Assembly (NCBI GenBank): GCA_021797745.1
Contig: JAJZZD010000002.1
Location: forward strand, 1 to 64,000
Length of the DNA stretch: 64,000 nucleotides
Direction: 5' to 3'
Source: Microcaldota archaeon
Lineage (GTDB): Archaea > Micrarchaeota > Micrarchaeia > Micrarchaeales > CABMGC01
Notes under the pieces: generated by a model
Seen by the model: the letters and a program-made list of their open reading frames with translations, nothing else
The model's database searches: none
What the model was told of the DNA's origin: nothing
Shown here: positions 16,600-28,905 of the stretch, piece by piece
Numbering within the stretch: the first letter of the stretch is position 1
Layout: each line of letters begins with the position of its first letter
Translations under genes and position numbers: made by a program

Positions 16600-16672
16600 G
16601 GGGAGTTAGGCTAGCTTGGTAGGCTTTAAGGTTTGGGACCTTAAGACCCGTGTTCAAATCACGGACTCCCCG
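16600..16672 (+). tRNA. tRNA-Pro(TGG)
   Basis: The acceptor stem pairs GGGGAGT (16600-16606) with ACTCCCC (16665-16671). The anticodon stem TAAGG/CCTTA encloses the loop TTTGGGA with anticodon TGG (16634-16636). The T arm is CCGTG, TTCAAAT, CACGG. No CCA is encoded. The 3' end is the integration site of two elements: the last four bases belong to the casposon target duplication, and 16643-16673 is repeated at 29041-29071. Confidence 0.95.
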
Positions 16673-16673
16673 A
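16643..16673 (+). repeat. Attachment repeat, left copy (3' end of tRNA-Pro)
   Basis: A 31-bp segment starting in the anticodon stem's 3' side and running to one base past the discriminator is repeated exactly at 29041-29071. Such a direct repeat, full tRNA at one end and only its 3' part at the other, is the footprint of a site-specific integration into a tRNA gene. Confidence 0.88.
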
Positions 16674-16682
16674 GCTAATCAA
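16669..16682 (+). repeat. Casposon target-site duplication, left copy
   Basis: CCCGAGCTAATCAA flanks the left inverted repeat and recurs directly after the right one (27436-27449). Fourteen bp is the length known for casposon integration. The first four bases are the end of tRNA-Pro. Confidence 0.92.
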
Positions 16683-16713
16683 GGGGTATAGTATATAAGA
16701 TGGAAATGTCACC
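16683..16713 (+). repeat. Casposon left terminal inverted repeat
   Basis: It starts GGGGTATAGTATATAA and ends GGAAATGTCACC; 29 of 31 positions match the reverse complement of 27405-27435, with differences only at positions 17 and 19. Confidence 0.93.
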
Positions 16714-16772
16714 CCTACCTTTATAAAAGCCGATTCTGTCGTCAGAGATAGCGAAGGAAAATCATCTCCAAG

Positions 16773-16904
16773 CTATTTTATAGCAATTTTAAACTTATCA
16801 CAAGAGGAACATCTCCACCTAGACTTGAATTTACCTCCATGTAAAGTTTCATATCCACCTACCTGACTCCATTTATGCAGTCCAACTAAACATAGTATAG
16901 ACAT
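16773..16904 (-). CDS. Small zinc-ribbon-like casposon protein (43 residues)
   Basis: The short frame reads MSILCLVGLHKWSQVGGY, then a linker, then RWRCSSCDKFKIAIK. The arrangement C-x4-H-x-W and C-x2-C is common in small archaeal and viral zinc-binding proteins (a CLxGxHKW start with a distal CxxC). It is the last gene of the leftward casposon operon, 47 nt after the 311-residue surface protein, with AGGT about 7 nt before the ATG. Evidence is the motif and position only. Confidence 0.6.
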   Translation of the reverse strand: MSILCLVGLHKWSQVGGYETLHGGKFKSRWRCSSCDKFKIAIK

Positions 16905-16951
16905 AATGTTACCTAGATACACTTCCACTTAAAGCTTAAAAAAGAGGTAGA

Positions 16952-17887
16952 TTATTGATCTAAATAATCTCCATTGGAGCTTCCTGAAACTAAGAGTCCC
17001 TTAGAATTAGGTAATAGCGTTCCTTCTGCGTTACACAAAACAGGCAACACTATAGAATAACTCTGACCATTATTATTTCCAGCTATTCTTACAACTTCAC
17101 CAACTGCAATAGTATCATTACTCTGTGCTATTTCTTCAAGGTCTTTACATACGTAGCTTCCTGCTCGAGTTTCATTTTGATAGCAGTTAATCCCACCTTG
17201 CTCCCCCGTTTCAAAAGCCCAATAGTTTATCCACTGATTAATTACTATTGTCAGATTATTTTTTACAATGGCCATTCTGTTACTAGACTGCTCTGAACTT
17301 ATATTCTTATAGGCATAGGAATACAATGCGTATGAATACGCCCCATTTACGGGTAATGTAGTGTTATAACTGAACGAAGAGGCATTAAAGGTCTTGTCCA
17401 ATACCTGTTGGGTATTTCCGAGCACATTAGTCGAATTATATACCAGTAGTACATACTCATAAGTAAGCTGGCTTGGATCACTTGCAGCACAGGTGAGCTT
17501 CCATGGATTAGTATTTTCATTCAGGTTACATCCTCCAGTCACGTTTGTCTTGGAATAGACTACGGCCGAGGTAGGCTCTGATATTAAGACTGCTACTCTC
17601 TGACCGGTATTGTTAACACTAAATATTGAAGTATTTACGATGCTTAATTGGGCATCAGGAAACCATTTATCTGACAATACAGTCATAGCACTACTCACTT
17701 GCGCAGTACAGTTTGATACGGCTCTGTTTTGAGCTGTTGGAGCCGCTATTGATTTCACATTAGCACCGATGTTTGTTAAAGCCGTTTCTAAATTACTCAT
17801 AGAGAGCGGATTGAAAATAACTTGCACTATACTTAATGCTATTACTAAAACTATCACCAAGATTATAATGTTTGTAATAAACCCCAT
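16952..17887 (-). CDS. Casposon surface protein with N-terminal membrane anchor
   Basis: A hydrophobic segment (residues 4-27) precedes a roughly 280-residue extracytoplasmic part rich in Asn, Ser and Thr with about a dozen N-x-S/T sequons and several paired cysteines (for example NCTAQ, GGCNL, LTCAA, NCYQN, YVCKD, VLCNA). The product resembles archaeal glycosylated surface or virion proteins in composition, but I recognise no family. It lies 9 nt after the next membrane-protein gene in the cas1 operon. Confidence 0.82.
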   Translation of the reverse strand: MGFITNIIILVIVLVIALSIVQVIFNPLSMSNLETALTNIGANVKSIAAPTAQNRAVSNCTAQVSSAMTVLSDKWFPDAQLSIVNTSIFSVNNTGQRVAVLISEPTSAVVYSKTNVTGGCNLNENTNPWKLTCAASDPSQLTYEYVLLVYNSTNVLGNTQQVLDKTFNASSFSYNTTLPVNGAYSYALYSYAYKNISSEQSSNRMAIVKNNLTIVINQWINYWAFETGEQGGINCYQNETRAGSYVCKDLEEIAQSNDTIAVGEVVRIAGNNNGQSYSIVLPVLCNAEGTLLPNSKGLLVSGSSNGDYLDQ

Positions 17888-17896
17888 ATTACTACA

Positions 17897-18259
17897 TCAG
17901 ACATGTAATATATAAATAATAATGAGCAGTAAAATAACAATCCCTATGATTCTAATTACCGACCATATAAGTTTCCTGATCAATTTAACTATTCCGTAGC
18001 TTGGGTATCTAAATCTATTCTTATAGTTTACCTTGAGGGGTCTCTTGAAAGTTACATCATACCTAGCTAATTCTGCCTTGCTATATTCTACAAGTTGCGC
18101 CCTTATGCTCTGGCGTACGTTATGGCCTCGTTGGCTGTGTGACTTGTATACTCTGTGAGATAGATTGATTATAGCTCTATTGAGCTTGTTTTCATCCAGA
18201 TTATTGTGATTGTACTTGATGTACTTCTTGAGCCACAGTTTTGCGTATATAAGTTTCAT
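17897..18259 (-). CDS. Casposon protein with C-terminal membrane anchor
   Basis: A 120-residue, very basic protein (many Lys, Arg, Tyr, His in the first 90 residues) ending in one hydrophobic span (VIRIIGIVILLLIIIYILHV). A tail-anchored protein with the basic part in the cytoplasm is the simplest reading; it might bind DNA at the membrane. No family recognised. It is 15 nt from the polytopic membrane gene upstream. Confidence 0.78.
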   Translation of the reverse strand: MKLIYAKLWLKKYIKYNHNNLDENKLNRAIINLSHRVYKSHSQRGHNVRQSIRAQLVEYSKAELARYDVTFKRPLKVNYKNRFRYPSYGIVKLIRKLIWSVIRIIGIVILLLIIIYILHV

Positions 18260-18274
18260 TCTATCTCACATAAT

Positions 18275-19360
18275 CTATATTTCTTTATCTCTTTTTTTCT
18301 TTTGTTTTTCCTTTCTTACTAGTATTACCTTTTGGGTTTTTGGTTCCAAAAAGCTTACTTTAACATAATAGATAAACGCCCCTACCAATGTGTACATAGA
18401 TAAAATCGCAAAATTTAGAAACGTCAATATAAATATTAATTGGACATTAAACGAAATCCATTCTAAAACAATGATAGAAGAAGCAATACCTATAAGAAGT
18501 AAATAAAATAATCCAAAACTCTTATTTTTTATTTTCCCTAACATAGTAGCTATCAAAGCAACAAATATGCTTTCTCCAACCATTATGCTCATGGCAACAT
18601 TAGAAAGCGAAGAATAATCAATATTTGAAATTTGTGCATTTGTAAAAGGTTGATATATCCAAAAAGTTAGGTAAATAGTAAATATAGTAATTATCCAACC
18701 TATTCCTAAATGCACATTTAATGATTTTGTATTTGATGGGAATTTCTTTGTATGTGTTATGAGCTGATTAATTAACCCCGATAAAAATTCCTTACCAGAT
18801 CGAGAAAATAGATAGGTTAGAAGTCCGATCAGGATTATTATAAGATATATTAGGTGAGCTATTGGTGCACTTGGATATAATCCAGTTAAATAAAATCCTA
18901 AACTTATGAGTAAGATGCTCAGGCTAGCATTTTTAATAAAATCTTCAATTGCATCGTATTCTATCCTTGCTTTACTTTTTCTCTTTGGCTCCGCAAAAAG
19001 TTCAGATATTATCTTTTTTGCAGAATAAACTAAGCAGAAAATAAATACTATGGCTAAGAATAGAAAATATAAGGCTGACCAGATCAGATATCCCTTAAAA
19101 AATAAGTTTTCAGCAGAAATTAAATCTGCAATAGACACAAAAAATACAATTATAAAAGAAATTATCCTGTGATCTGCAAATATTTTGAAATTAAAGAAAA
19201 GCACAGTTAGGAATACATATATGAAAGCTAGGAACATTATCAATCCTAAGAAAGAATTTGTCAAAACATTGTTTTGGATAATAGATGATATACTAGCACA
19301 GAAAACACTAATTAAGATGATCCCAAGAATTATTTTGTCCATCAGACCAAATTTAAACAA
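18275..19360 (-). CDS. Casposon polytopic membrane protein
   Basis: The 361-residue product has about nine or ten hydrophobic spans separated by short charged loops, a basic loop near residue 130 (AEPKRKSKARIEYD) and a strongly basic tail. No transporter motif is recognised. It directly follows the Cas1-family integrase gene (6 nt), so it is co-transcribed with it. It is cargo of unknown role. Confidence 0.82.
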   Translation of the reverse strand: MFKFGLMDKIILGIILISVFCASISSIIQNNVLTNSFLGLIMFLAFIYVFLTVLFFNFKIFADHRIISFIIVFFVSIADLISAENLFFKGYLIWSALYFLFLAIVFIFCLVYSAKKIISELFAEPKRKSKARIEYDAIEDFIKNASLSILLISLGFYLTGLYPSAPIAHLIYLIIILIGLLTYLFSRSGKEFLSGLINQLITHTKKFPSNTKSLNVHLGIGWIITIFTIYLTFWIYQPFTNAQISNIDYSSLSNVAMSIMVGESIFVALIATMLGKIKNKSFGLFYLLLIGIASSIIVLEWISFNVQLIFILTFLNFAILSMYTLVGAFIYYVKVSFLEPKTQKVILVRKEKQKKKRDKEI

Positions 19361-19366
19361 ATCAAT

Positions 19367-20536
19367 TCACCTTGATATTTTCTGTATCGTTTTATCATAA
19401 ATCTTAATCCGCTTTCCTTCTTTAATGTTCTTTTTCATATACCACAGTGTGTTTCGCTTAATGCCCAGCATACGCCGTTCCTCTGGCGTCATGTCGGCTA
19501 TCCTATGTCGAATCTTAGTGTTATCTACTCTGTTAATCTCAAGTTTTGGAATATCAAAAGACAACCTAACAGACTTGCCTATAACATAATCTGCTAGGAG
19601 CCTAACGTTTTCATAAAGAACATTCTGATAACTATGGTATTTATCATTATATAGAACTCTAGAATTGAAGTTCAACTTTATCTTCTCAATTAGCATCTTT
19701 GCAGTGGTCTCTCTGAGTCTAATATTGTAGCTCTCAGTTACAATAAAGCTACTTGCCTTAAGCTTCTTCTCTTCGAGTAATTGTATAACTGATAGGTCAA
19801 CTATCCACCTAAAAAGCTCTTGCAGATCGTATACTAAAGACGCTCTGCCATCTTTTAGCTCGTGCAAGAAACCTATTGACGAGTCTAGGCCTATGGCGTT
19901 GATATCTCTAAGCACCTCTGCTTCTAGTATGGCATAACCATAATTCAGTAGCGCATTGATCGGATCGCTTGCATTCATATTCCAAGACTGTCTTCTGCCA
20001 TTCCTATCTGTAAATCTAAATTCTGGAGCTAGCTTGTTGAATACCTTACCTATCTCATGCCAGTATGCAATAGCTATATTACCCTCATAGGTTAGTACAC
20101 TTTCTGCTATAGTTCGCTCTTTGAATGCTGTAGGCTTTACTTCTAGATAGTACTTCGATAGCTCTGCAAGTAAGCTTATTGAGTGCTTAACCTTCTCCTT
20201 GACTATAGTCTCGGCTATTAGGCGTTTCTTTGCTTGGTCTGAGTAAGCTGCGTACTGTTTTATCTTGAGGTTAGCTGATGCTGGCTCTTTTGGCAAGGTA
20301 ACGCTTAGCAGATTGCCGTTCCAGTTCAAGAATATCAGAGATACATCATGTTTGATTAGCCAGCGCATAGCTTCAAACGTGATATTGCCAGTATGGCCAT
20401 CTATGATTATTGAATCATATGGTATCTGGTGTGGATAGAACTCAAATTTGTAGTTGTCAAGTTTATTTACAATAACTAGTCTACGTTTATCTACACGGAT
20501 GTGATTTCCAAATCCTGAGATTAGTAGCGGGTTCAT
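19367..20536 (-). CDS. cas1: Casposase (Cas1-family integrase)
   Basis: The 389-residue protein has the Cas1 fold signatures: an N-terminal beta domain, then YEGNIAIAYWHE with catalytic E151, then DSSIGFLHE with H225 and SLVYDLQELFR with D237 and E240. A C-terminal helix-turn-helix-like extension (TPEERRMLGIKRNTLWYMKK) is a mark of casposases. It would cut or join the element ends at the inverted repeats and insert them into the tRNA-Pro 3' end, leaving the 14-bp duplication seen here. The start overlaps the stop of the HTH gene upstream by 4 nt. No other cas gene is present. Confidence 0.95.
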   Translation of the reverse strand: MNPLLISGFGNHIRVDKRRLVIVNKLDNYKFEFYPHQIPYDSIIIDGHTGNITFEAMRWLIKHDVSLIFLNWNGNLLSVTLPKEPASANLKIKQYAAYSDQAKKRLIAETIVKEKVKHSISLLAELSKYYLEVKPTAFKERTIAESVLTYEGNIAIAYWHEIGKVFNKLAPEFRFTDRNGRRQSWNMNASDPINALLNYGYAILEAEVLRDINAIGLDSSIGFLHELKDGRASLVYDLQELFRWIVDLSVIQLLEEKKLKASSFIVTESYNIRLRETTAKMLIEKIKLNFNSRVLYNDKYHSYQNVLYENVRLLADYVIGKSVRLSFDIPKLEINRVDNTKIRHRIADMTPEERRMLGIKRNTLWYMKKNIKEGKRIKIYDKTIQKISR

Positions 20537-21426
20537 TTTTTCACCTCATTCATTTGCTTTTCTATAGCTTTTAGCGTCCTCTTCTCTTCCCTAGTCCCGT
20601 GTTTCTTTATATGTGAAAGGTCTCTTTTGTATTTTCCTCTAATATACTCAGTATAATGCAGTGATGGTTCTATTGTAAAACCCAATACATCATACCAAAT
20701 ATTCGGTGAAGTGGTAATAGATATTTTCGAATCTCTTATTCGCTGTACAAGTATATCAATTTTATCAAATTTCCTATCATTTCCATCTTTTGCTATCTTT
20801 TTTAATTCTGATTCGTAATTTTTGAACTCTTCTTCACTTTCAGCAAGATTTGAATAGACAAACTTGAAACTTTCAGGAGTTAATATCTGAACTTTTTGCT
20901 CTACAGCCTTCTGATTTCTAGTTTTTTTATCTGGAAAGATTTTGCCCCCTAAAAAGTTACCAAAAAGTGAATCGACAAACGCAAGAGAGGTTTTTGTATC
21001 ATCAGCAATATGGTAGCGCAATACACCTATTAACAAAACGGTCAAAATTGTCTTAGTTATTGCTGTTTCTATGGTCTCATTACCCTTGATTATTATAGGG
21101 TTTATCTTTTCGTTTTCAACTATACTCTTTAATGTAGATTTTTGATCCTCATCTAGGCCTAACTTTTGGCCTAAATAGTCAGATATTATTGCACTTTTTA
21201 GCTTGAATGGTTTTCCTTTAACTTTTGGCGACCACTTATTAGGAACTTCGATATATTGCTCTATTTTACTAAATTGCTTTAGGATAGTTTGCCTAGATAC
21301 TCCGCTTTTCTCTTCAACATCTAATGCGATTCTTGGTTTTTCCAAAAAATATGGTGCAAATATCCTAAACGCCTCACTTTGGAAAACAGATTCCAAGCTG
21401 TTAATTTCTTTGGTCATAATAATCAA
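20533..21426 (-). CDS. Casposon HTH protein, probable regulator
   Basis: The first 70 residues read like a winged-helix domain (ALDVEEKSGVSRQTILKQFSKIEQYI). A middle part with one hydrophobic stretch (ITKTILTVLLIGVLRYHIADD) and a highly charged C-terminus follow. It is the first gene of the leftward operon and faces a control region with repeated CAATTGTAA boxes, so it may bind them and regulate both operons, or take part in replication. It overlaps cas1 by 4 nt. Family not recognised. Confidence 0.8.
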   Translation of the reverse strand: MIIMTKEINSLESVFQSEAFRIFAPYFLEKPRIALDVEEKSGVSRQTILKQFSKIEQYIEVPNKWSPKVKGKPFKLKSAIISDYLGQKLGLDEDQKSTLKSIVENEKINPIIIKGNETIETAITKTILTVLLIGVLRYHIADDTKTSLAFVDSLFGNFLGGKIFPDKKTRNQKAVEQKVQILTPESFKFVYSNLAESEEEFKNYESELKKIAKDGNDRKFDKIDILVQRIRDSKISITTSPNIWYDVLGFTIEPSLHYTEYIRGKYKRDLSHIKKHGTREEKRTLKAIEKQMNEVKK

Positions 21427-21540
21427 TTGTAAACGGTTTTGTATTTACTTAACAATTGTAAATTCGTCTAATACTTTATCCAATTGTAACTATTTCATTC
21501 GTCAATTATCATTTGTGTAAACCTATACAACAATTGTAAT
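21424..21540. repeat. CAATTGTAA iteron-like repeats in the divergent control region
   Basis: CAATTGTAA occurs exactly at 21424, 21453, 21481 and 21531, all in the same orientation, with steps of 29, 28 and 50 nt; a degenerate copy (CAATTATC...GTGTAA) lies near 21502. Each core CAATTG is palindromic and two copies extend towards TTACAATTGTAA. They occupy the gap between the divergent operons, where operators or replication iterons would be expected. Confidence 0.8.
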
Positions 21541-21610
21541 ATGAATTAACTATTAAGAATTATAAAGGTTACTATAATATGCGCTTACCAAAAGCGCAGA
21601 GGAATATAAG

Positions 21611-22279
21611 ATGAAATTCTCGAAAAGATTCGGGTCATTCAGCGAATGGCTTCAGAGCCAAGATAAGAGGACGGGGTACGTCCAGCGCATTACTAGACTT
21701 CATAACCTATATCCCCATGCGTCGCTTGATGCGCTACGTGGCCATACAGCAAGTAGCAAAGCACTTAGGATGGCCAGTTCAGTTCCATTGTACAAAAGAT
21801 CATGGTCTACGCTCACCGTACGTGAAAAGGTAGCTAGGCAGAGAAGCTTGGACATCTTAAGCTTAGCTAGGCGTATAGGTGCCAGCTTAAGTCAGCTAGC
21901 TAAGGAGCGTGGCATACCTTTAGATACAGTACTAAAAAACACACATGCCTTTAAGAAAGTCAACGGACGCTGGAAAGCTATCGAGTACGACAGAATACCA
22001 AGAACGCTGCTTATTTACGAAAATAGACGTGAAGCGTTCGTAGAGATTACAGATAGCAGATATGCCAGCTTGATTGGTAAGTACCACAGCACAATCAAAG
22101 AATATTTGGAAAATGGCAGCCTTGAGGCTTTGGCTGAGTTCAAGAATAAGACGGTTAGGGATAGCAACGGGAATTATCATCTTCTTGAAACTGATCCTGA
22201 CACCATACGTGACATAGTTGAGAGCAAGGAGACAGAGTTCAACGAACCTATTTATGAGGGATTAAATGAGACAATGTAA
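21611..22279 (+). CDS. Casposon basic HTH protein
   Basis: The 222-residue protein is rich in Arg and Lys in its first 60 residues, and contains a helix-turn-helix-like segment about residues 90-118 (SLSQLAKERGIPLDTVLKNT). It is the first gene of the rightward operon and probably binds DNA. I recognise no named family. Its last 14 nt overlap the zinc-finger gene. Confidence 0.78.
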   Translation: MKFSKRFGSFSEWLQSQDKRTGYVQRITRLHNLYPHASLDALRGHTASSKALRMASSVPLYKRSWSTLTVREKVARQRSLDILSLARRIGASLSQLAKERGIPLDTVLKNTHAFKKVNGRWKAIEYDRIPRTLLIYENRREAFVEITDSRYASLIGKYHSTIKEYLENGSLEALAEFKNKTVRDSNGNYHLLETDPDTIRDIVESKETEFNEPIYEGLNETM

Positions 22280-22610
22280 TGAATGTGGTAAGGAATTTGT
22301 GAGTGGCAACTCATACAGGGTACATAAGTATCGTTTTCACAGAGTGCCTAAGCAAGATAAGTTGGCTGAGATAAGGCAGTTTGTGGAAACAACAGAACTA
22401 ACACCACAACATGAACCTGAACCAAAATTTGAGACAGTATCAGAACCAAAAACAACTACTACAGAGCAAAGCACTCAGAACGATGACCGTTGGGGTAGAA
22501 GAGAGATTACACGTAATAGTGGCAGTGACGATCTTGGTAGCCTGTTGGCCATAGGTGGAGCCGTAGCTGGCCTTATCTTATTGCTACTATTTGGTGGCAA
22601 GAAACAGTGA
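22266..22610 (+). CDS. C2H2 zinc-finger protein with C-terminal membrane span
   Basis: Residues 4-25 form one C2H2 finger (CNECGKEFVSGNSYRVHKYRFH; C4, C7, H20, H25), followed by a Gln/Thr-rich linker and a single hydrophobic span (LLAIGGAVAGLILLLLFGG) with a short basic tail. C2H2 fingers are rare in archaeal chromosomes but common in their viruses and plasmids. The protein could tie element DNA to the membrane. Confidence 0.82.
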   Translation: MRQCNECGKEFVSGNSYRVHKYRFHRVPKQDKLAEIRQFVETTELTPQHEPEPKFETVSEPKTTTTEQSTQNDDRWGRREITRNSGSDDLGSLLAIGGAVAGLILLLLFGGKKQ

Positions 22611-22795
22611 TTTTAATGGATGACAGCAAGCTCAACGATAAGCTCCTTGCACAGATGACAGACAAACTGCTAGAAACTGGAGAGCGTGAGCATCTTGACA
22701 TGAAGATAGTCAACAAGTTCGTGGCGTTACTTCAGTACATTTTCAGGAAAGACCCTAAGAAGAAAGATGAAAAGTGTATACTATGTCCAGACTAG
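22607..22795 (+). CDS. Small casposon protein, 62 residues
   Basis: The product is helical and charged, with a terminal KDEKCILCPD containing C-x2-C. It overlaps the zinc-finger gene by 4 nt and the HNH gene by about 20 nt, consistent with translational coupling. The start may be the inner ATG (MDDSKLNDKL). Function unknown. Confidence 0.65.
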   Translation: MILMDDSKLNDKLLAQMTDKLLETGEREHLDMKIVNKFVALLQYIFRKDPKKKDEKCILCPD

Positions 22796-23061
22796 AATTG
22801 CACCATGTGGCTGGCAAGTGCAGTTCAGAGCTTACATGTACACTGTGTGTCGGACACCACATGCCAATCAGCAACCGGCAGTGGTGCTGGGATGTTCGCT
22901 GGAATAGTCAAAGCAATTCAGAGAGTCTAAGAGCATCATTCATTGTACAAGGAGTGCAAGAGCTTCTAGTGGAGTTGCACGCTAGTACTGGTTTACATGA
23001 CTACAGGGTGCTAGCAGACTCTTTAGCCCCTACTATTCGAGGCTACAGAGAGCGTGGTTAA
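22774..23061 (+). CDS. Putative HNH endonuclease
   Basis: The N-terminal region LELHHVAGKCSSELTCTLC followed by VGHHMPIS resembles the HNH motif (His-His, then a Cys-x2-Cys-like metal site and a distal His). HNH nucleases are frequent casposon passengers. At 95 residues it is small, and the second metal pair is incomplete, so activity is uncertain. The ATG at 22783 (MSRLELHH) is an alternative start. It abuts polB directly. Confidence 0.55.
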   Translation: MYTMSRLELHHVAGKCSSELTCTLCVGHHMPISNRQWCWDVRWNSQSNSESLRASFIVQGVQELLVELHASTGLHDYRVLADSLAPTIRGYRERG

Positions 23062-25818
23062 ATGGAAAATGTAGACATATTCCTACGGTGCTATCTCAGC
23101 GAACCAAAAGTGAAAGGAGAAGACCCTTTTGAGCGCAACTTCAACCAAAATTTACTGTTCGTTTTCGACACCGAGACAAAAACCACATTAGATAAGGAGT
23201 ACCAAACGCTCTTGTTTGGTTCGTGCAGCATATATGAACGGTTTAGTGGTTGGGAACTGGTTCGTAGGATTATTTTCTACCCAAAGAGCATACGTGAAAG
23301 CGAATTGGACATACTCAAAGCAGTAGCGAAGAAGGAAAGGATAGAACTTCTACCAGTTGACGGGTTTATTGCGCTCTTCTTCATGTATGTTTACAAAAGG
23401 CGAGCATTATGCATAGGATTTAACTTGCCATTTGACCTGTCACGCATAGCAATGCACATAGGAACCTCAAAGAACGATAGGACTTCTTTCTCGTTGCAGT
23501 TATCCGATAGGCTATACCATCCAAGAATCTTCATAAAACACATAAGTTCCAAGAGTGCTTTTATCGGATTTTCAAGGCCGTTACTGCGAAATAAGAAGAG
23601 AAGTGACAGGAAAAAGTACTATGCTGGTGCATTCCTTGACCTCAAAACATTGGCGTTTTCCCTAACTAACAAGAGCTTTTCACTGGAAACTGCATGTGAT
23701 TACTTCAAAGTCGAGCACAAGAAGCTCAAAGCAGAAGAATTTGGGAAGATAACTGTAGATCATGTTGAGTACAATCTGCGAGATGTACTTGCTACTTACG
23801 AATTGTATCTTGCACTGGCAAGAAAATTTGATAGTTATGGGTTGAAAATAAGAATAAATTCGCTCTTTTCTCCAGCTTCGCTGGCGAAGGCATTCTTAGA
23901 CTCAATGAACATAAAATCTTTTGGTGAACAAAACCCTGAATTCAGAAAAGATACGCTAGGATATGTTATGACTACCTACTTCGGAGGTAGGTCAGAGGTG
24001 CATATACGTAAACGACATGTGCAAGTCTCGTATTTAGACTTCACTTCCATGTATCCATCACAGTTTGAACTACAGGATTTGTGGCCTTTTGTTGTTGCGA
24101 ATAAGATAAACATTATCAAAGACGACAAATTTCATGATTTACTGGACAAAATAACGTTATCCGACCTGAAAAATAAGGAAACATGGAAAAAATTGACAGG
24201 TATAGCTAAGGTGGATGCTAAAGACGACATATTCCCAGTAAGATCAGGATATGGAAGGGAAAATGGTCACAATATTGGTGTAAATCACGTCACAGGGCAG
24301 CTATATTATACGTATGCAGACATTATCGCCTCAAAACTTTTGACTGGAAAGACACCTCAAATCATAGAAGCTTACAGATTTGAGCCAGTTGGAGTACAGG
24401 ACGATCTCAAGAGGATAATGCTGTTTGGTAGAGAGGTAGACCCGTCAAAAGAAAGTTTTGTCAAAGTGCTAATAGAGCATAGGCTTGACATAAAGAAACA
24501 GCTTGATAGCGATAAGGATAATGCAGACTTAGATAACCAACAAAACATACTCAAAATAATAGCCAATTCTATTTACGGCATAAACGTTCAGATAGATACG
24601 GTTCCAGTGGACAAGTCAAAACATCCTGACGGAAAGGTAACAAAAGATGTTTACGGCCTTAGACACCTCTATGCTAGGGTTGGCAAGAATGAAGAGCAAG
24701 GCAAGGCGTTTAATCCTCTCATAGCAACGTGGCTTACCTCTGGTGCTAGGTTGATACTAGCTATGGCAGAAGCCTACCTTAAGGAAACTAGTGGGTATTA
24801 CACATATATGGACACGGATGGGATATTCGTTGATCCTAGTTCGGTTAAAGGTCTACAAGCGCTTGTAAAAGACCTAAATCCATACAACAGACACCTTGCT
24901 ATGTTCAAAGTAGAGGCAATAAAGGACAAGGATGGAGATATACCACTAGATAACGTTACTTTCTTTGGGATTTCTGCAAAAAGATACGGTTTATACACGA
25001 AAGATAACGTTACTGGCAAGATAAAGATACTGAAATGCTCGTCCAGTGCCATAGGACATATGTGCAGTATGCCGAAAGGATGGGAAAATGATTTCTGGGT
25101 AGACATACTACGATACGATAATGGTGAGATAACGAATCAGTATATAGTAGATAGATATGGTAAGATACCTGTTGCAGTACAGATATCTATCAGTTCACCG
25201 CTTATTCGTAACCAGTTCATAAAGTATTACAACGTTACTGCCTTCAATTTCATGATAATTGGTACGGGATATAACGTAGATAGCGTTACTGGTGAGCCTG
25301 TCATACCGATGATACCATATACAAAGGACTTGTCATCCATTATCTACACATCGTTTATAGACAAGATAACGGGTAAGTTATATACAAATAACACCGAATT
25401 CTATTGGAAACCGCTGTCAAAACTGTTTTTTGAGTATATAAAACATGAAGAAACTAAGTACGAAGGCAGTATAGGCACGTTAAAACGTAAACATCTACGT
25501 GTGGGTAGCGTTATCTACACTGGAAAAGAGTCAAATAACCTAGAAGAAAGCGAAATAATAGGTGTACAAGATGACGATAACGTTATCTACGATGACAAAG
25601 TAACAGATAAAAACGTGTTAAAACAGGGTAAAAATAGTGTTAAAAACAAGGAAATAATACGTATCATAATGCAAATGACCTACAAGCAAGCTGCCAGCGT
25701 AAGATTATCAAAAAGGCAACTACTTAGACTACGTAAGAAACTCAGAAACCATGAGCTGATAACGCTTAGGAATAAGACGATTAGGAAACTGTTAAATACC
25801 TCTTCAAATAACTCATAA
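23062..25818 (+). CDS. polB: Family B DNA polymerase, probably protein-primed
   Basis: The 918-residue polymerase has the three exonuclease motifs (DTE at 36-38; GFNLPFD about 119-125; YNLRD about 237) and the polymerase motifs A (YLDFTSMYPS, about 324), B (IIANSIYG, about 500) and C (YMDTDG, D584 and D586). The first exonuclease motif near the N-terminus and the gap of about 170 residues between A and B fit protein-primed polymerases with TPR insertions. Motif C ends in Gly instead of the usual Ser. About 330 residues after motif C, much more than in phi29-type enzymes, match nothing I know. It would replicate the casposon DNA. Confidence 0.92.
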   Translation: MENVDIFLRCYLSEPKVKGEDPFERNFNQNLLFVFDTETKTTLDKEYQTLLFGSCSIYERFSGWELVRRIIFYPKSIRESELDILKAVAKKERIELLPVDGFIALFFMYVYKRRALCIGFNLPFDLSRIAMHIGTSKNDRTSFSLQLSDRLYHPRIFIKHISSKSAFIGFSRPLLRNKKRSDRKKYYAGAFLDLKTLAFSLTNKSFSLETACDYFKVEHKKLKAEEFGKITVDHVEYNLRDVLATYELYLALARKFDSYGLKIRINSLFSPASLAKAFLDSMNIKSFGEQNPEFRKDTLGYVMTTYFGGRSEVHIRKRHVQVSYLDFTSMYPSQFELQDLWPFVVANKINIIKDDKFHDLLDKITLSDLKNKETWKKLTGIAKVDAKDDIFPVRSGYGRENGHNIGVNHVTGQLYYTYADIIASKLLTGKTPQIIEAYRFEPVGVQDDLKRIMLFGREVDPSKESFVKVLIEHRLDIKKQLDSDKDNADLDNQQNILKIIANSIYGINVQIDTVPVDKSKHPDGKVTKDVYGLRHLYARVGKNEEQGKAFNPLIATWLTSGARLILAMAEAYLKETSGYYTYMDTDGIFVDPSSVKGLQALVKDLNPYNRHLAMFKVEAIKDKDGDIPLDNVTFFGISAKRYGLYTKDNVTGKIKILKCSSSAIGHMCSMPKGWENDFWVDILRYDNGEITNQYIVDRYGKIPVAVQISISSPLIRNQFIKYYNVTAFNFMIIGTGYNVDSVTGEPVIPMIPYTKDLSSIIYTSFIDKITGKLYTNNTEFYWKPLSKLFFEYIKHEETKYEGSIGTLKRKHLRVGSVIYTGKESNNLEESEIIGVQDDDNVIYDDKVTDKNVLKQGKNSVKNKEIIRIIMQMTYKQAASVRLSKRQLLRLRKKLRNHELITLRNKTIRKLLNTSSNNS

Positions 25819-25821
25819 TTC

Positions 25822-26163
25822 ATGGCTAAACGAAAGAGGTCTAACAGTTTAAATTCTGTGATCAGATTTCTATCAGAGTGGATTGACAAAGCAGTACATA
25901 GCCTCATACAGCTTGTTACTGTAATTGCAATTATCGCAGGGACACTCTTAATAGTTTCACAGTTGCTTAAGGGGCAAGTCAGCTTAGTCTATAATTTGAT
26001 CCAAGTATGTGGTGTTATCGTTGCTTTATTACCTATTTTGATAACTGGTTTGATTAAGGAGAAGGCTAAAATTTTCCAAGAGTTTATTATAGCCGTTTTA
26101 CAGATAGAATATATTCTTCTTTTTTCTTTGCTCAGCGGTGTAATCTTTTTATATACTTGGTGA
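25822..26163 (+). CDS. Casposon small membrane protein (three spans)
   Basis: The 113-residue protein has a basic N-terminus and three hydrophobic spans (about 27-52, 60-82 and 90-112). It follows polB by 3 nt. No family recognised. Confidence 0.75.
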   Translation: MAKRKRSNSLNSVIRFLSEWIDKAVHSLIQLVTVIAIIAGTLLIVSQLLKGQVSLVYNLIQVCGVIVALLPILITGLIKEKAKIFQEFIIAVLQIEYILLFSLLSGVIFLYTW

Positions 26164-26185
26164 TACTGGGATTACTACGTCGAAT

Positions 26186-26335
26186 ATGGGATGGACAAGT
26201 GTGATCTATGGCTTCTCAGGATTACTATTTGGGTTTATGTTCTTATTCGGAATTGGTAGCTTTGTATATGCAATAAACGATTTTAGAACTGTTTTAGCCA
26301 AAAAATTCAAAATAAAATTAGATGAAGATGAATAA
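26186..26335 (+). CDS. Casposon very small membrane protein (49 residues)
   Basis: An ATG-led frame gives MGWTSVIYGFSGLLFGFMF onward, one long hydrophobic span (about 6-31) and an acidic end (KIKLDEDE). It fills the gap between the neighbouring membrane-protein genes and overlaps the next one by 14 nt, which supports coding. Function unknown. Confidence 0.55.
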   Translation: MGWTSVIYGFSGLLFGFMFLFGIGSFVYAINDFRTVLAKKFKIKLDEDE

Positions 26336-26516
26336 AATGTCACATAAAATAATGATTATGGTAGGAGAAATATTGAGGGATTTAGGCATCGGGATAGTTG
26401 GTGGTGCTATTGTATCTTATTTTGCGATATCTAACTCTCAATATGGCGTATTCATAGTAATGGGTGCAATATTTACTGCTATTGGGAACGGTATAAAAAT
26501 GCATTATTCAGAGTAA
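26322..26516 (+). CDS. Casposon small membrane protein (two spans)
   Basis: A 64-residue protein with two hydrophobic segments (about 20-36 and 41-57) separated by a short polar turn (SNSQYG). The start could be any of several early methionines. Size and layout resemble the two-helix coat proteins of spindle-shaped archaeal viruses, but sequence identity cannot be judged here. Confidence 0.65.
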   Translation: MKMNKMSHKIMIMVGEILRDLGIGIVGGAIVSYFAISNSQYGVFIVMGAIFTAIGNGIKMHYSE

Positions 26517-26523
26517 GGATAGA

Positions 26524-27351
26524 ATGGGATTCTTCGATAGATTTAGAAAATCAGATAACAAGAATGAATCTGCGAAAGATAAATCAACTTCGATACCCAA
26601 AGATAATAACATTGAAGAACCAATTATCAGAGAGGAACCAAGTGGTTCAGGTACTTACATTTACAGGGTTGATGAAAATAAGACTATTAACGAGCATCTT
26701 CAAATAATTGCGAACGAACTTTTAATCAAAAATAGGGCAATAAAAATTATATTAAAAGCAAAAGGCAATATGATATCTAGAACAATAGATGTTTCAGAAA
26801 TACTGCACATTCGTTCAAGGCCTCGATTTGACATATGTGCAGAAGATATCAAAATAGGCAAAGAAGAGAATAAGGTTGGAAATGCCATAACTGTAATCTC
26901 AAATATCGCTATTATACTCAGAATAAGGGAGACAATAACGGCAACTCAAACACCATGGACTAAGAAAAATACGTCAGAAGAAAAGAAGAAACCTGATTCG
27001 GAAAAAATTAAGAAAGTTGCTAAATTAGATAATACAATAGAGATAAAGTCAAATTCAGATAAAGACTTTGCAAATTCTGTATTGCAGACCATAACGTATC
27101 TTGTTAATTATAAAAGTGCAATTATTAGTGGGAAAAAAGAATACTCAACTAAAATTTTAGAGCTGAGAGACCTATTGGTAAATAAAGGGATGAAAAGTTA
27201 TTTAGATACTTTCTGGGACAAAAAAGCTGAGGAAATAGAGAAAACAACTGGAAAGAGAGAAATTAGATTGGTAAGTGATATTATGCCTACAGTCATAGTC
27301 GATTATACCAAAAGTAATACTGATAATATAGAAGTAGGTTTACATGTTTAA
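26524..27351 (+). CDS. Casposon Alba-domain protein
   Basis: Residues about 45-137 match the Alba fold. AIKIILKAKGNMISRTIDV aligns with [17 protein letters not shown] of the chromosomal Alba protein at 39854-40177, followed by SEIL, RSRPRF and a beta-hairpin with IGKEENKVGNAITVISNIAI. A charged N-terminal segment (1-40) and a roughly 135-residue C-terminal extension of unknown fold flank it. It would bind element DNA or RNA. It is the last gene before the right inverted repeat, 8 nt after the two-span protein. Alba fused to extra domains inside a casposon is unusual. Confidence 0.82.
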   Translation: MGFFDRFRKSDNKNESAKDKSTSIPKDNNIEEPIIREEPSGSGTYIYRVDENKTINEHLQIIANELLIKNRAIKIILKAKGNMISRTIDVSEILHIRSRPRFDICAEDIKIGKEENKVGNAITVISNIAIILRIRETITATQTPWTKKNTSEEKKKPDSEKIKKVAKLDNTIEIKSNSDKDFANSVLQTITYLVNYKSAIISGKKEYSTKILELRDLLVNKGMKSYLDTFWDKKAEEIEKTTGKREIRLVSDIMPTVIVDYTKSNTDNIEVGLHV

Positions 27352-27404
27352 AATAGTATAATTGTGAATTCCCTTGCTCTATATACTAAAATAGTTATAG
27401 AATA

Positions 27405-27435
27405 GGTGACATTTCCCTATTATATACTATACCCC
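27405..27435 (-). repeat. Casposon right terminal inverted repeat
   Basis: Reverse complement of the left repeat with 29 of 31 matches, ending CTATACCCC just before the second copy of the 14-bp duplication. Confidence 0.93.
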
Positions 27436-27449
27436 CCCGAGCTAATCAA
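27436..27449 (+). repeat. Casposon target-site duplication, right copy
   Basis: CCCGAGCTAATCAA is identical to 16669-16682. The run of seven C shared by the repeat end and the duplication leaves one base of uncertainty about the exact border. Confidence 0.9.
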
Positions 27450-27478: not shown

Positions 27479-28270
27479 TTATAAGTTCATTAGTTCAGTA
27501 AGCTGTTTTATGACTTCGCCGTTTTCAGGCAGAGGATTCACAGTATACGCCAATTCAGACCTCCATTTCATTTTATCTCTTGCAGTTTCTATTTTTTTCT
27601 TTAGTGTTTTTTTGTCGAATTTTTCGTTTCTCTTCCCGACCTTTTCTTTTATCAGTTTTTCGTCATAATTTATTTTCTTTATTACTAAAAGGTAATAAAC
27701 ATCGTAAATATCTCTCATCTTTGACCTTTCTAATACTGCCGACACCTTTTCAGCAAGTATTTCTTCAATATTCATCACCTGCAATGAAAAAGTACCTATG
27801 TCTTGGTAGATTGGTGATATGTACTTCAGCTCAGATTTAAGCAGAATATCATTTCTCAGGCTTAAGTCTATATTTATGTTCTGCAACTGACTGCTTCTTG
27901 GATTTAATGGACCTCTTACTCTTATCATATAATTTAATCCTATCGTTTTATTGCCTTCTTTCCTGGTTCTGTGCTCGCTGCTCACCACCTGATATTGTCT
28001 TCCTAAATTAAGTATCACAGATTCGATGGTTTTTGCCAATGCTTTCACATCTGTCGGATTTCTGTCCGGCATATATGAAAAGTCCAAATCTTCAGAAAAT
28101 CTGTTTAAGTTATAGAAATATTTGAGTGCGGTGCCGCCCTTGAAAATCAACTCGTTTGCGAATTTCGAAGATATTTCATGAAGGAGCAAAGTTAGCAAGT
28201 AGTCTCTTTCCAACTGCCTCATATCTCTGAACTTCCCTAAGTTTTCCATCAGCTGATGCTCATCAATCAC
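27479..28270 (-). CDS. AbiEii-type nucleotidyltransferase toxin
   Basis: The 263-residue protein has the signature FKGGTALKYFY then RFSEDLDFSY of the AbiEii/AbiGii nucleotidyltransferases, plus the later EEILAEKVSAVLERSKMRDIYDVYYL motif (third catalytic carboxylate and Lys). Family members act as toxins, in some cases by adding nucleotides to tRNA, and provide abortive phage immunity. It overlaps the AbiEi gene by 4 nt, the normal order for this toxin-antitoxin pair. Confidence 0.9.
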   Translation of the reverse strand: MIDEHQLMENLGKFRDMRQLERDYLLTLLLHEISSKFANELIFKGGTALKYFYNLNRFSEDLDFSYMPDRNPTDVKALAKTIESVILNLGRQYQVVSSEHRTRKEGNKTIGLNYMIRVRGPLNPRSSQLQNINIDLSLRNDILLKSELKYISPIYQDIGTFSLQVMNIEEILAEKVSAVLERSKMRDIYDVYYLLVIKKINYDEKLIKEKVGKRNEKFDKKTLKKKIETARDKMKWRSELAYTVNPLPENGEVIKQLTELMNL

Positions 28271-28905
28271 TCATACACCTCGTTGCCTTTTGCCTTTGGC
28301 CTTACTAATTCCCGCACTTTTTTCAATAAACTTGCAGAGTGCATCATTTTTGCATATTCCACCAGGGTGGCTTTCTTAAGCATTTTATGTCTTAAGGCAT
28401 CTAAATATGCTTCCTTGACAGAGGCTTTTTCCGGAGAACCGAGATATAACGAGTCTATTATGGCTTTTTCCACAGAAGCCATGAATGCATTCCCTATTTT
28501 TTTGTATCCGAAGAACCTATTGCGATTTAAAGTAATGAACTCTATTTCGTTTCCATCAATTGCGGCTGCCCTGTGCCTTTTTAGGGTAATTACGCTATAT
28601 TTTATCACGGATTGGTCAGTCAACGAGTAATATTGAAATGCTGCAAACATGCTTACATATGATGGATAAACGATATTCGATGCTATTTCATATATGTCGG
28701 CGCCGTCTATGCCGGTTATGTAATACAGACCCTTTATGGCCCGTTTGACCTTCTTGTTGTGAGAGAGCATCTTCGATACATAGGCCGGTTTCTTTCTGGT
28801 AATTTTGACAACATCAAGTACGCTGAAAACGCGCATGTTGCTTTGAATTAGCCGATCAAGGACATCTTGCATTTTTAAGTAACGTGACATACACACCACA
28901 TTCAT
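28267..28905 (-). CDS. AbiEi-type antitoxin/regulator
   Basis: The 212-residue product begins with a winged helix (VFSVLDVVKITRKKPAYVSKML then a wing GLYYITG) followed by the AbiEi C-terminal domain (YPSYVSMFAAFQYYSLTDQ). It probably represses its own operon and neutralises the nucleotidyltransferase. The start could be the second methionine (MSRYLKMQ, 28890). It lies inside the tRNA-Pro island, where a toxin-antitoxin pair stabilises retention. Confidence 0.87.
   Translation of the reverse strand: MNVVCMSRYLKMQDVLDRLIQSNMRVFSVLDVVKITRKKPAYVSKMLSHNKKVKRAIKGLYYITGIDGADIYEIASNIVYPSYVSMFAAFQYYSLTDQSVIKYSVITLKRHRAAAIDGNEIEFITLNRNRFFGYKKIGNAFMASVEKAIIDSLYLGSPEKASVKEAYLDALRHKMLKKATLVEYAKMMHSASLLKKVRELVRPKAKGNEVYE

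Follow-up and report, generated by a model that had tools for sequence, protein, structure and literature searches.

Ends and insertion site of the element

In this work we analysed a 64,000-nucleotide stretch of archaeal DNA (contig JAJZZD010000002.1, positions 1–64,000; hereafter the window), in which a 10,753-bp element, very probably a casposon, occupies positions 16683–27435. The contig as a whole measures 112,623 bp and belongs to an 806-kb genome, 91% complete, that is assembled in 9 contigs. An inverted-repeat search places the element between two terminal inverted repeats (TIRs) of 31 nt each, GGGGTATAGTATATAAGATGGAAATGTCACC on the left (16683–16713, plus strand) and its counterpart on the right (27405–27435, minus strand), which are complementary at 29 of 31 positions (94%). 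Directly outside the TIRs lie the two copies of a 14-bp target site duplication (TSD), CCCGAGCTAATCAA, at 16669–16682 and 27436–27449, identical at 14/14 positions; a 15th base (C) beyond the TSD agrees too, but was counted to the TIR tip. No further copy of CCCGAGCTAATCAA was found elsewhere in the window at up to two mismatches. The left TSD covers the last 4 nt of a tRNA-Pro gene (anticodon TGG, 16600–16672, plus strand; ARAGORN), which is unaltered and carries the T-loop motif TCAAATC at 16654–16660. A scan of the window for inverted repeats bracketed by a 12-bp direct repeat returned only this TIR pair (28/31 in that register), and none of 300 simulated first-order Markov windows gave such a hit at 24/31 or better, the best reaching 21/31. 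The GC content of the element (0.33–0.42) is below that of most of the window.

The casposase and the polymerase

The open reading frame (ORF) at 19367–20536 (minus strand) encodes an intact Cas1 of 389 amino acids (aa), the sole Cas1 of the genome (Pfam Cas_Cas1, E 6e-57). Among all solved structures its best match in the PDB is the Methanosarcina mazei casposase 6opm, over nearly its whole length (E 1e-75), and the next best structure is a Cas1 of a CRISPR (clustered regularly interspaced short palindromic repeats) system (E 1e-28). The alignment to 6opm reaches residue 411 of that chain, through the C-terminal helix–turn–helix (HTH). The active-site residues of the M. mazei enzyme, E162, H232 and E247 (PMC6977970), correspond to E151, H225 and E240 here and are invariant across ten aligned casposases. 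In a maximum-likelihood tree of HTH-bearing and family 1-like casposases and CRISPR Cas1 proteins, for which the 6opm row was taken from its pairwise alignment with the window Cas1, the casposases split from 16 CRISPR Cas1 proteins at 98/93, and the window Cas1 groups successively with those of other Micrarchaeota (82/90), with thaumarchaeal HTH-bearing casposases (98/99) and with the M. mazei enzyme (99/96). Family 1-like proteins fall outside the HTH-bearing clade. No Cas2 was found in the genome, no regular repeat array in the element or the window, and no match to recombinase or transposase families other than Cas1 among the element ORFs searched (Pfam, NCBIfam, PHROGs). Viral contigs held no relatives of Cas1 or of the polymerase described below, phage records no relatives of the polymerase, and plasmid records only distant matches, which were CRISPR Cas1 in every case among the matches listed.

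Divergently from cas1, at 23062–25818 (plus strand), the element encodes a B-family DNA polymerase (PolB) of 918 aa (Pfam DNA_pol_B, E 6.8e-07), with a B-family fold, the 3'-5' exonuclease motifs ExoI (FDTET), ExoII (NxPFD) and ExoIII (YNxxD), motif A (DFTSMYP) and motif B (KIIANxxYGI). It carries a C-terminal HTH: the HTH of the window Cas1 matches the C-terminus of PolB from a related casposon (L044; E 9e-05), and the window PolB aligns there. The polymerase of the Aciduliprofundum boonei casposon has been assigned to a 'PolB_CDTDS' group with links to the main as well as to the protein-primed polymerases (PMC7544198). Profile and fold searches with the window PolB likewise matched RNA-primed and protein-primed polymerases and did not separate the modes, and any priming mode assigned to this protein is putative.

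Conserved block and element-specific genes

PolB is the last gene of a block on the plus strand that consists of a 222-aa casposon core protein (21611–22279), a 114-aa protein with a C2H2 zinc finger and a C-terminal hydrophobic segment (22266–22610), a 62-aa protein (22607–22795), a predicted HNH-type nuclease of 95 aa (22774–23061) and PolB itself. All intact Micrarchaeota relatives have this block, likewise divergent from cas1, and its 222-aa, HNH and PolB genes are shared with thaumarchaeal relatives. The 222-aa protein is putatively DNA-binding; its structure model contains an HTH-like segment (predicted local distance difference test score 83), and a fold search with the model gave no significant match. 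The C2H2 finger scores 0.0013 in Pfam, below the cut-off, and the HNH protein has no Pfam match, its assignment resting on an LELHHxxG...CxxCH motif whose HH...CxxCH part is conserved across relatives next to PolB.

Four other genes lie on the minus strand. A 297-aa protein with an HTH-like N-terminus by inspection (20533–21426) apparently forms an operon with cas1, and its position is filled by unrelated HTH-like proteins in two relatives (L044, L045); neither this protein nor the 222-aa protein matched a curated family. On its other side cas1 is adjoined by a 361-aa hydrophobic, probably multi-pass membrane protein (18275–19360), with weak relatives beside cas1 in L123 and L124. Beyond it are a 120-aa protein with a hydrophobic C-terminus (17897–18259), which has a 75%-identical relative in a decayed casposon of genome G245, and a 311-aa element-specific protein (16952–17887), secreted or surface-exposed to judge by its hydrophobic N-terminus, with no Pfam or PHROG match. 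Downstream of PolB, on the plus strand, follow membrane proteins of 113 aa (25822–26163) and 64 aa (26322–26516) and a 275-aa Alba-domain protein (26524–27351; TIGR00285; Pfam Alba, 2.9e-06, which passes the cut-off). The roles of the HNH, HTH, C2H2-membrane and Alba proteins are thus far predicted ones. A first-pass annotation of the window, made from the letters alone, had described an unusual cargo of Alba, HNH, C2H2-membrane and many small membrane proteins. This stands for Alba and the flanking small membrane proteins, which are mostly limited to this element or a few others, and not for the HNH and C2H2-membrane proteins, which are core genes of the group since the block recurs in the intact Micrarchaeota relatives.

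Target rule

The A. boonei casposase requires TCAAATC at positions -15 to -9 and CC at +1/+2 of its target (PMC6614799), and the site in the window equals this requirement, with TCAAATC at 16654–16660 and CC at 16669–16670. In 69 of the 74 sites fetched, the start of the TIR lies 29 nt beyond the motif's first T; the sites are in tRNA-Pro, tRNA-Glu and tRNA-Lys genes and, in thaumarchaeal loci, in tRNA-Ser and tRNA-Glu genes. A pattern search of 301 Micrarchaeota genomes, with five gap lengths allowed, yielded about 119 tRNA sites with a TIR tip (a manual count of its output), in 78 of the 164 genomes of the order to which the host belongs and in none of the 137 Micrarchaeota genomes outside it; the reversed pattern gave none. 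An identical 22-nt gap was present at 108 of the approximately 119 sites. These sites form a natural data set for casposase targeting across tRNA genes and are in line with the T-arm ruler derived from a single A. boonei site. Because the duplicated segment at tRNA-Glu sites begins with AG, they also suggest that the CC dinucleotide needed by the A. boonei casposase is not required in general.

No exact empty counterpart of the tRNA-Pro site in the window was found among relatives. The nearest to one is in genome G033, where the same tRNA-Pro block is directly followed by another gene and the surrounding gene order differs.

An AbiEi/AbiEii toxin–antitoxin pair (27479–28905; PADLOC, E 3e-28 and 2e-76) lies in low-GC DNA 30 bp beyond the right TSD; it is not part of the casposon and may have come to the tRNA-Pro site separately.

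Relatives and spread

Intact casposases occur in 6 of the 301 Micrarchaeota genomes (that of the window, G049, G010, G267, G202 and G270), all of one order, and partial copies in about ten more. In the complete relatives (L044, L045, L122, L123 and L124) the TSDs of 14 bp are exact and the tips are GGGGTTATATATA. Most relatives in the order are decayed. Cas1 is about 89% identical between G049 and G267, which belong to different families, and 62% identical between the window and G049, which belong to one family. The right-hand part of the element (25758–27251) shares 96.8% DNA identity with a genome of another genus (G062), and for a fragment of PolB the identity to G043 is 91%, against only 70% for the neighbouring chromosomal gene there. 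These high identities across taxa point to recent horizontal spread.

Several rearranged copies were observed. A decayed 5.3-kb casposon in G245 (L125, 6680–11983) has two TIRs of different types with only a 13-bp tip in common, as if two elements had recombined. At the right end of the casposon of L052 (2999–3060; G051:C8) the TIR end is repeated in tandem as a 31-nt direct repeat (94%), an array-like arrangement. In Micrarchaeota MAS1.bin30 a tRNA-Pro end with a TIR occurs as an inverted pair (L006, 99–130 and 3345–3376) around a broken casposon, which suggests inversion or tandem insertion. Two family 1-like cas1 genes without HTH lie 1.1 kb apart in a Nitrosarchaeum genome (L165, G302:C2), which has HTH-type casposases at other places. 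Stand-alone C-terminal Cas1 and PolB pieces, present in many genomes, were at first considered as separate genes; those that adjoin tRNA sites with TIR tips are more readily explained as what is left of the ends of casposons with internal deletions.

A complete casposon

We conclude, with a probability of about 95%, that the element is a complete, site-specific family 2-type casposon that has inserted into a Micrarchaeota chromosome at the tRNA-Pro 3' end. This reading is supported because its ends, the duplication, the motif distances, gene integrity, phylogeny and many independent insertions agree. The full casposon of the first-pass annotation, with 31-bp inverted repeats, a 14-bp duplication and intact Cas1 and PolB, is thereby borne out, the TIR and TSD matches being unequalled in the simulated windows and the motifs present. 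That annotation had named two observations that would refute it, a Cas1 grouping with CRISPR Cas1 and repeats also present at the empty site in relatives; as the Cas1 lies on the casposase side of the 98/93 split and a number of the corresponding tRNA-Pro sites in relatives lack the TIRs, its interpretation is supported.

By analogy with the A. boonei and M. mazei enzymes, the casposase would bind the GGGG.../...CCCC tips of the excised element and recognise the T-arm (TCAAATC) of the tRNA gene. The T-arm would set where the two 3' ends of the element are joined, one to each strand with a stagger of 14 nt, at positions 15 and 29 nt downstream of the TCAAATC motif's first T. Gap repair would copy the 14 nt into a direct repeat and leave the tRNA intact. 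The casposase may act alone or with the core DNA-binding proteins, and the element would be copied by its own PolB, as the presence and conservation of the polymerase suggest.

The strongest alternative is that the element, complete in sequence, is no longer mobile in this host and is a recent fossil. Several observations weigh against a fully functional element: the 113-aa membrane ORF is probably frameshifted, as it is 170 aa long in the nearly identical DNA of G062 and a single alignment gap separates the two; PolB motif C reads YMDTDG here versus YCDTDS/A in relatives; and the second conserved cysteine of the HNH motif is replaced in this copy. Mobility and present activity are inferred from the assembled sequence. 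The decay of most relatives in the order fits a fossil as well. On the other side, Cas1 and PolB are long intact frames with their catalytic residues kept, the TIRs (29/31) and the TSD (14/14) are well preserved, and the presence of nearly the same right-hand DNA in another genus speaks for a recent move. We therefore hold a fossil to be possible but rather unlikely.

That a thaumarchaeal casposon was mis-assembled or mis-binned into a Micrarchaeota bin is very improbable. The nearest named Cas1 records outside Micrarchaeota are indeed thaumarchaeal (51–53% identical), and the host assembly is in 9 contigs, but relatives also have the tRNA-Pro and the genes on the upstream side of the insertion, the Micrarchaeota casposases form a group of their own, the intact relatives sit within long contigs of 95–97% complete genomes of the order, and a decayed relative is in a genome that consists of a single contig (928,770 bp). 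The assignment of the host to Micrarchaeota, in a DPANN order of very small genomes, is supported, and the same GTDB family contains genomes deposited as Candidatus Micrarchaeota (G076 and G077 among them). The extension of the casposon range that the first-pass annotation had foreseen for a Micrarchaeota-like host thus holds. No earlier report of casposons in Micrarchaeota or other DPANN was found in a literature search that mostly could not reach subscription papers, which is no proof of absence. The element is thus a new casposon of known type, in a host group for which no earlier report was found.

A chromosomal CRISPR adaptation gene cas1 beside an unrelated polymerase, with no transposon involved, would account for the strong match of general Cas1 profiles, but the genome lacks Cas2, a second Cas1 and, in the element and window, a regular repeat array; the position of Cas1 in the casposase clade and the TIRs and TSD that bracket the genes exactly refute this reading, to which we give practically no weight. 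The 3' ends of tRNA genes are typical sites of tyrosine recombinases, yet an integrative element of that kind with Cas1 as a passenger is scarcely credible, as the element ORFs searched gave no hit to a recombinase or transposase family, a 14-bp duplication outside matched TIRs with fixed spacing across different tRNA genes is transposase-like, and att sites would have sequence common to element and tRNA.

Non-autonomous derivatives and footprints

Besides the complete casposons, the order contains elements with no match to cas1 or polB. One in G063 (L249, 9900–14050; G063:C11) is 4,151 bp long with TIRs matching at 30/30 positions and an exact TSD, and another, in G027, is 899 bp long with an exact duplication. 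By inspection, L249 carries transposase-like and methyltransferase-like ORFs and a surface protein that resembles one in the L045 casposon.

A few sites retain the duplicated target around a 15–18-bp footprint of the tips. In G041 the arrangement is TSD, GGGGTTATATATAACCCC, TSD; the genome of the window has a similar footprint of 15 bp (G000:C2) and G036 a weaker one of 16 bp, and another lies beside the casposon of G049. The 18-bp footprint palindrome was found in three genomes of the order only, each time at such sites. A control with random TSDs gave 9 matches in 1465 at up to three mismatches, versus 4 in the 74 sites here, and one of these four is probably due to chance. A search for footprints without a recognisable tip yielded no further case. 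Krupovic et al. expected excision to leave duplicated targets with footprints behind, and M. mazei gave single clean sites (PMC10359463). The footprints are a lead rather than a result, because a deletion between two TATATA stretches yields the same products; they bear on how casposons excise.

Within the window's genome, the footprint site (L207, G000:C2:2001–2039) has a target duplication around the 15-bp tip footprint at a tRNA gene. A TIR of another type lies at a tRNA gene on a second contig (L208, G000:C4:48185–48223), and no right end for it was found within 13.8 kb.

Taken together, it is conceivable, though on balance doubtful, that casposons predominate among the tRNA-targeting mobile elements of this Micrarchaeota order, in autonomous, non-autonomous and footprint forms, and that some excise with both target copies left around a 15–18-bp fusion of both TIR tips, so that units of a 14-bp repeat, a 15–18-bp spacer and a repeat arise in nature. 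If so, such units might serve as a model for the initial step on the way to a CRISPR array.

Comparison with known systems

The element combines the features of casposons: a casposase-clade Cas1, TIRs, a TSD of 14 bp (a median of about 15 bp is expected), a B-family polymerase and no other recombinase. Of the companions of cas1 in a CRISPR-Cas adaptation module, no cas2 was found in the genome and no array in the window. The HTH on Cas1, the similar HTH on the PolB C-terminus, the HNH protein and the grouping of Cas1 with 6opm and the thaumarchaeal proteins (99/96) are family 2 features. Family 2 is further marked by two distinct HTH proteins, one of them with HEAT repeats, and by a PolB of the PolB3-related/CDTDS group; in this element the 297-aa and 222-aa proteins are putative HTH proteins, and motif C of PolB (YMDTDG) deviates from the YCDTDS/A of relatives. 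Family 1, with a compact Cas1 lacking the HTH and a protein-primed PolB, differs in the HTH present here and in the branch on which L165 lies. Family 2 is the best fit, on a tree that covered HTH-bearing and family 1-like casposases; family 4 is conceivable as well.

Of the family 2 casposons, AciBoo-C1 of A. boonei shares the tRNA-Pro 3' end, TCAAATC at -15 to -9, CC at the start of the TSD, a TSD of 14–15 bp and a Cas1 with a C-terminal HTH (PMC6614799, PMC4046053); it differs in host phylum, the comparison being with the published description. MetMaz-C1, the source of the M. mazei casposase 6opm, shares a Cas1 alignable over nearly its full length including the HTH, the same catalytic triad, a 14-bp target, a 31-bp TIR and CCC-ending tips, but its target sequence (a CGCA motif) and host are different, and the window Cas1 lies on a separate branch with the thaumarchaeal HTH casposases. 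The family 1 thaumarchaeal casposons, for which L165 was taken as family 1-like, belong to the same casposase superfamily and differ by a Cas1 without HTH on a separate long branch and a PolB that is protein-primed by definition. The HTH-bearing thaumarchaeal casposons (L003, L159 and L161–L163; NitNCS1-C1 in the literature) differ in Cas1 identity of about 51–54%, PolB identity of 35–39% and no zinc-finger/62-aa pair found; they are nevertheless the sister group by Cas1 and have the same gene order, cas1 / 222-aa protein, HNH and PolB, and L003 also shares the GGGG tips, the tRNA target and the 29-nt spacing.

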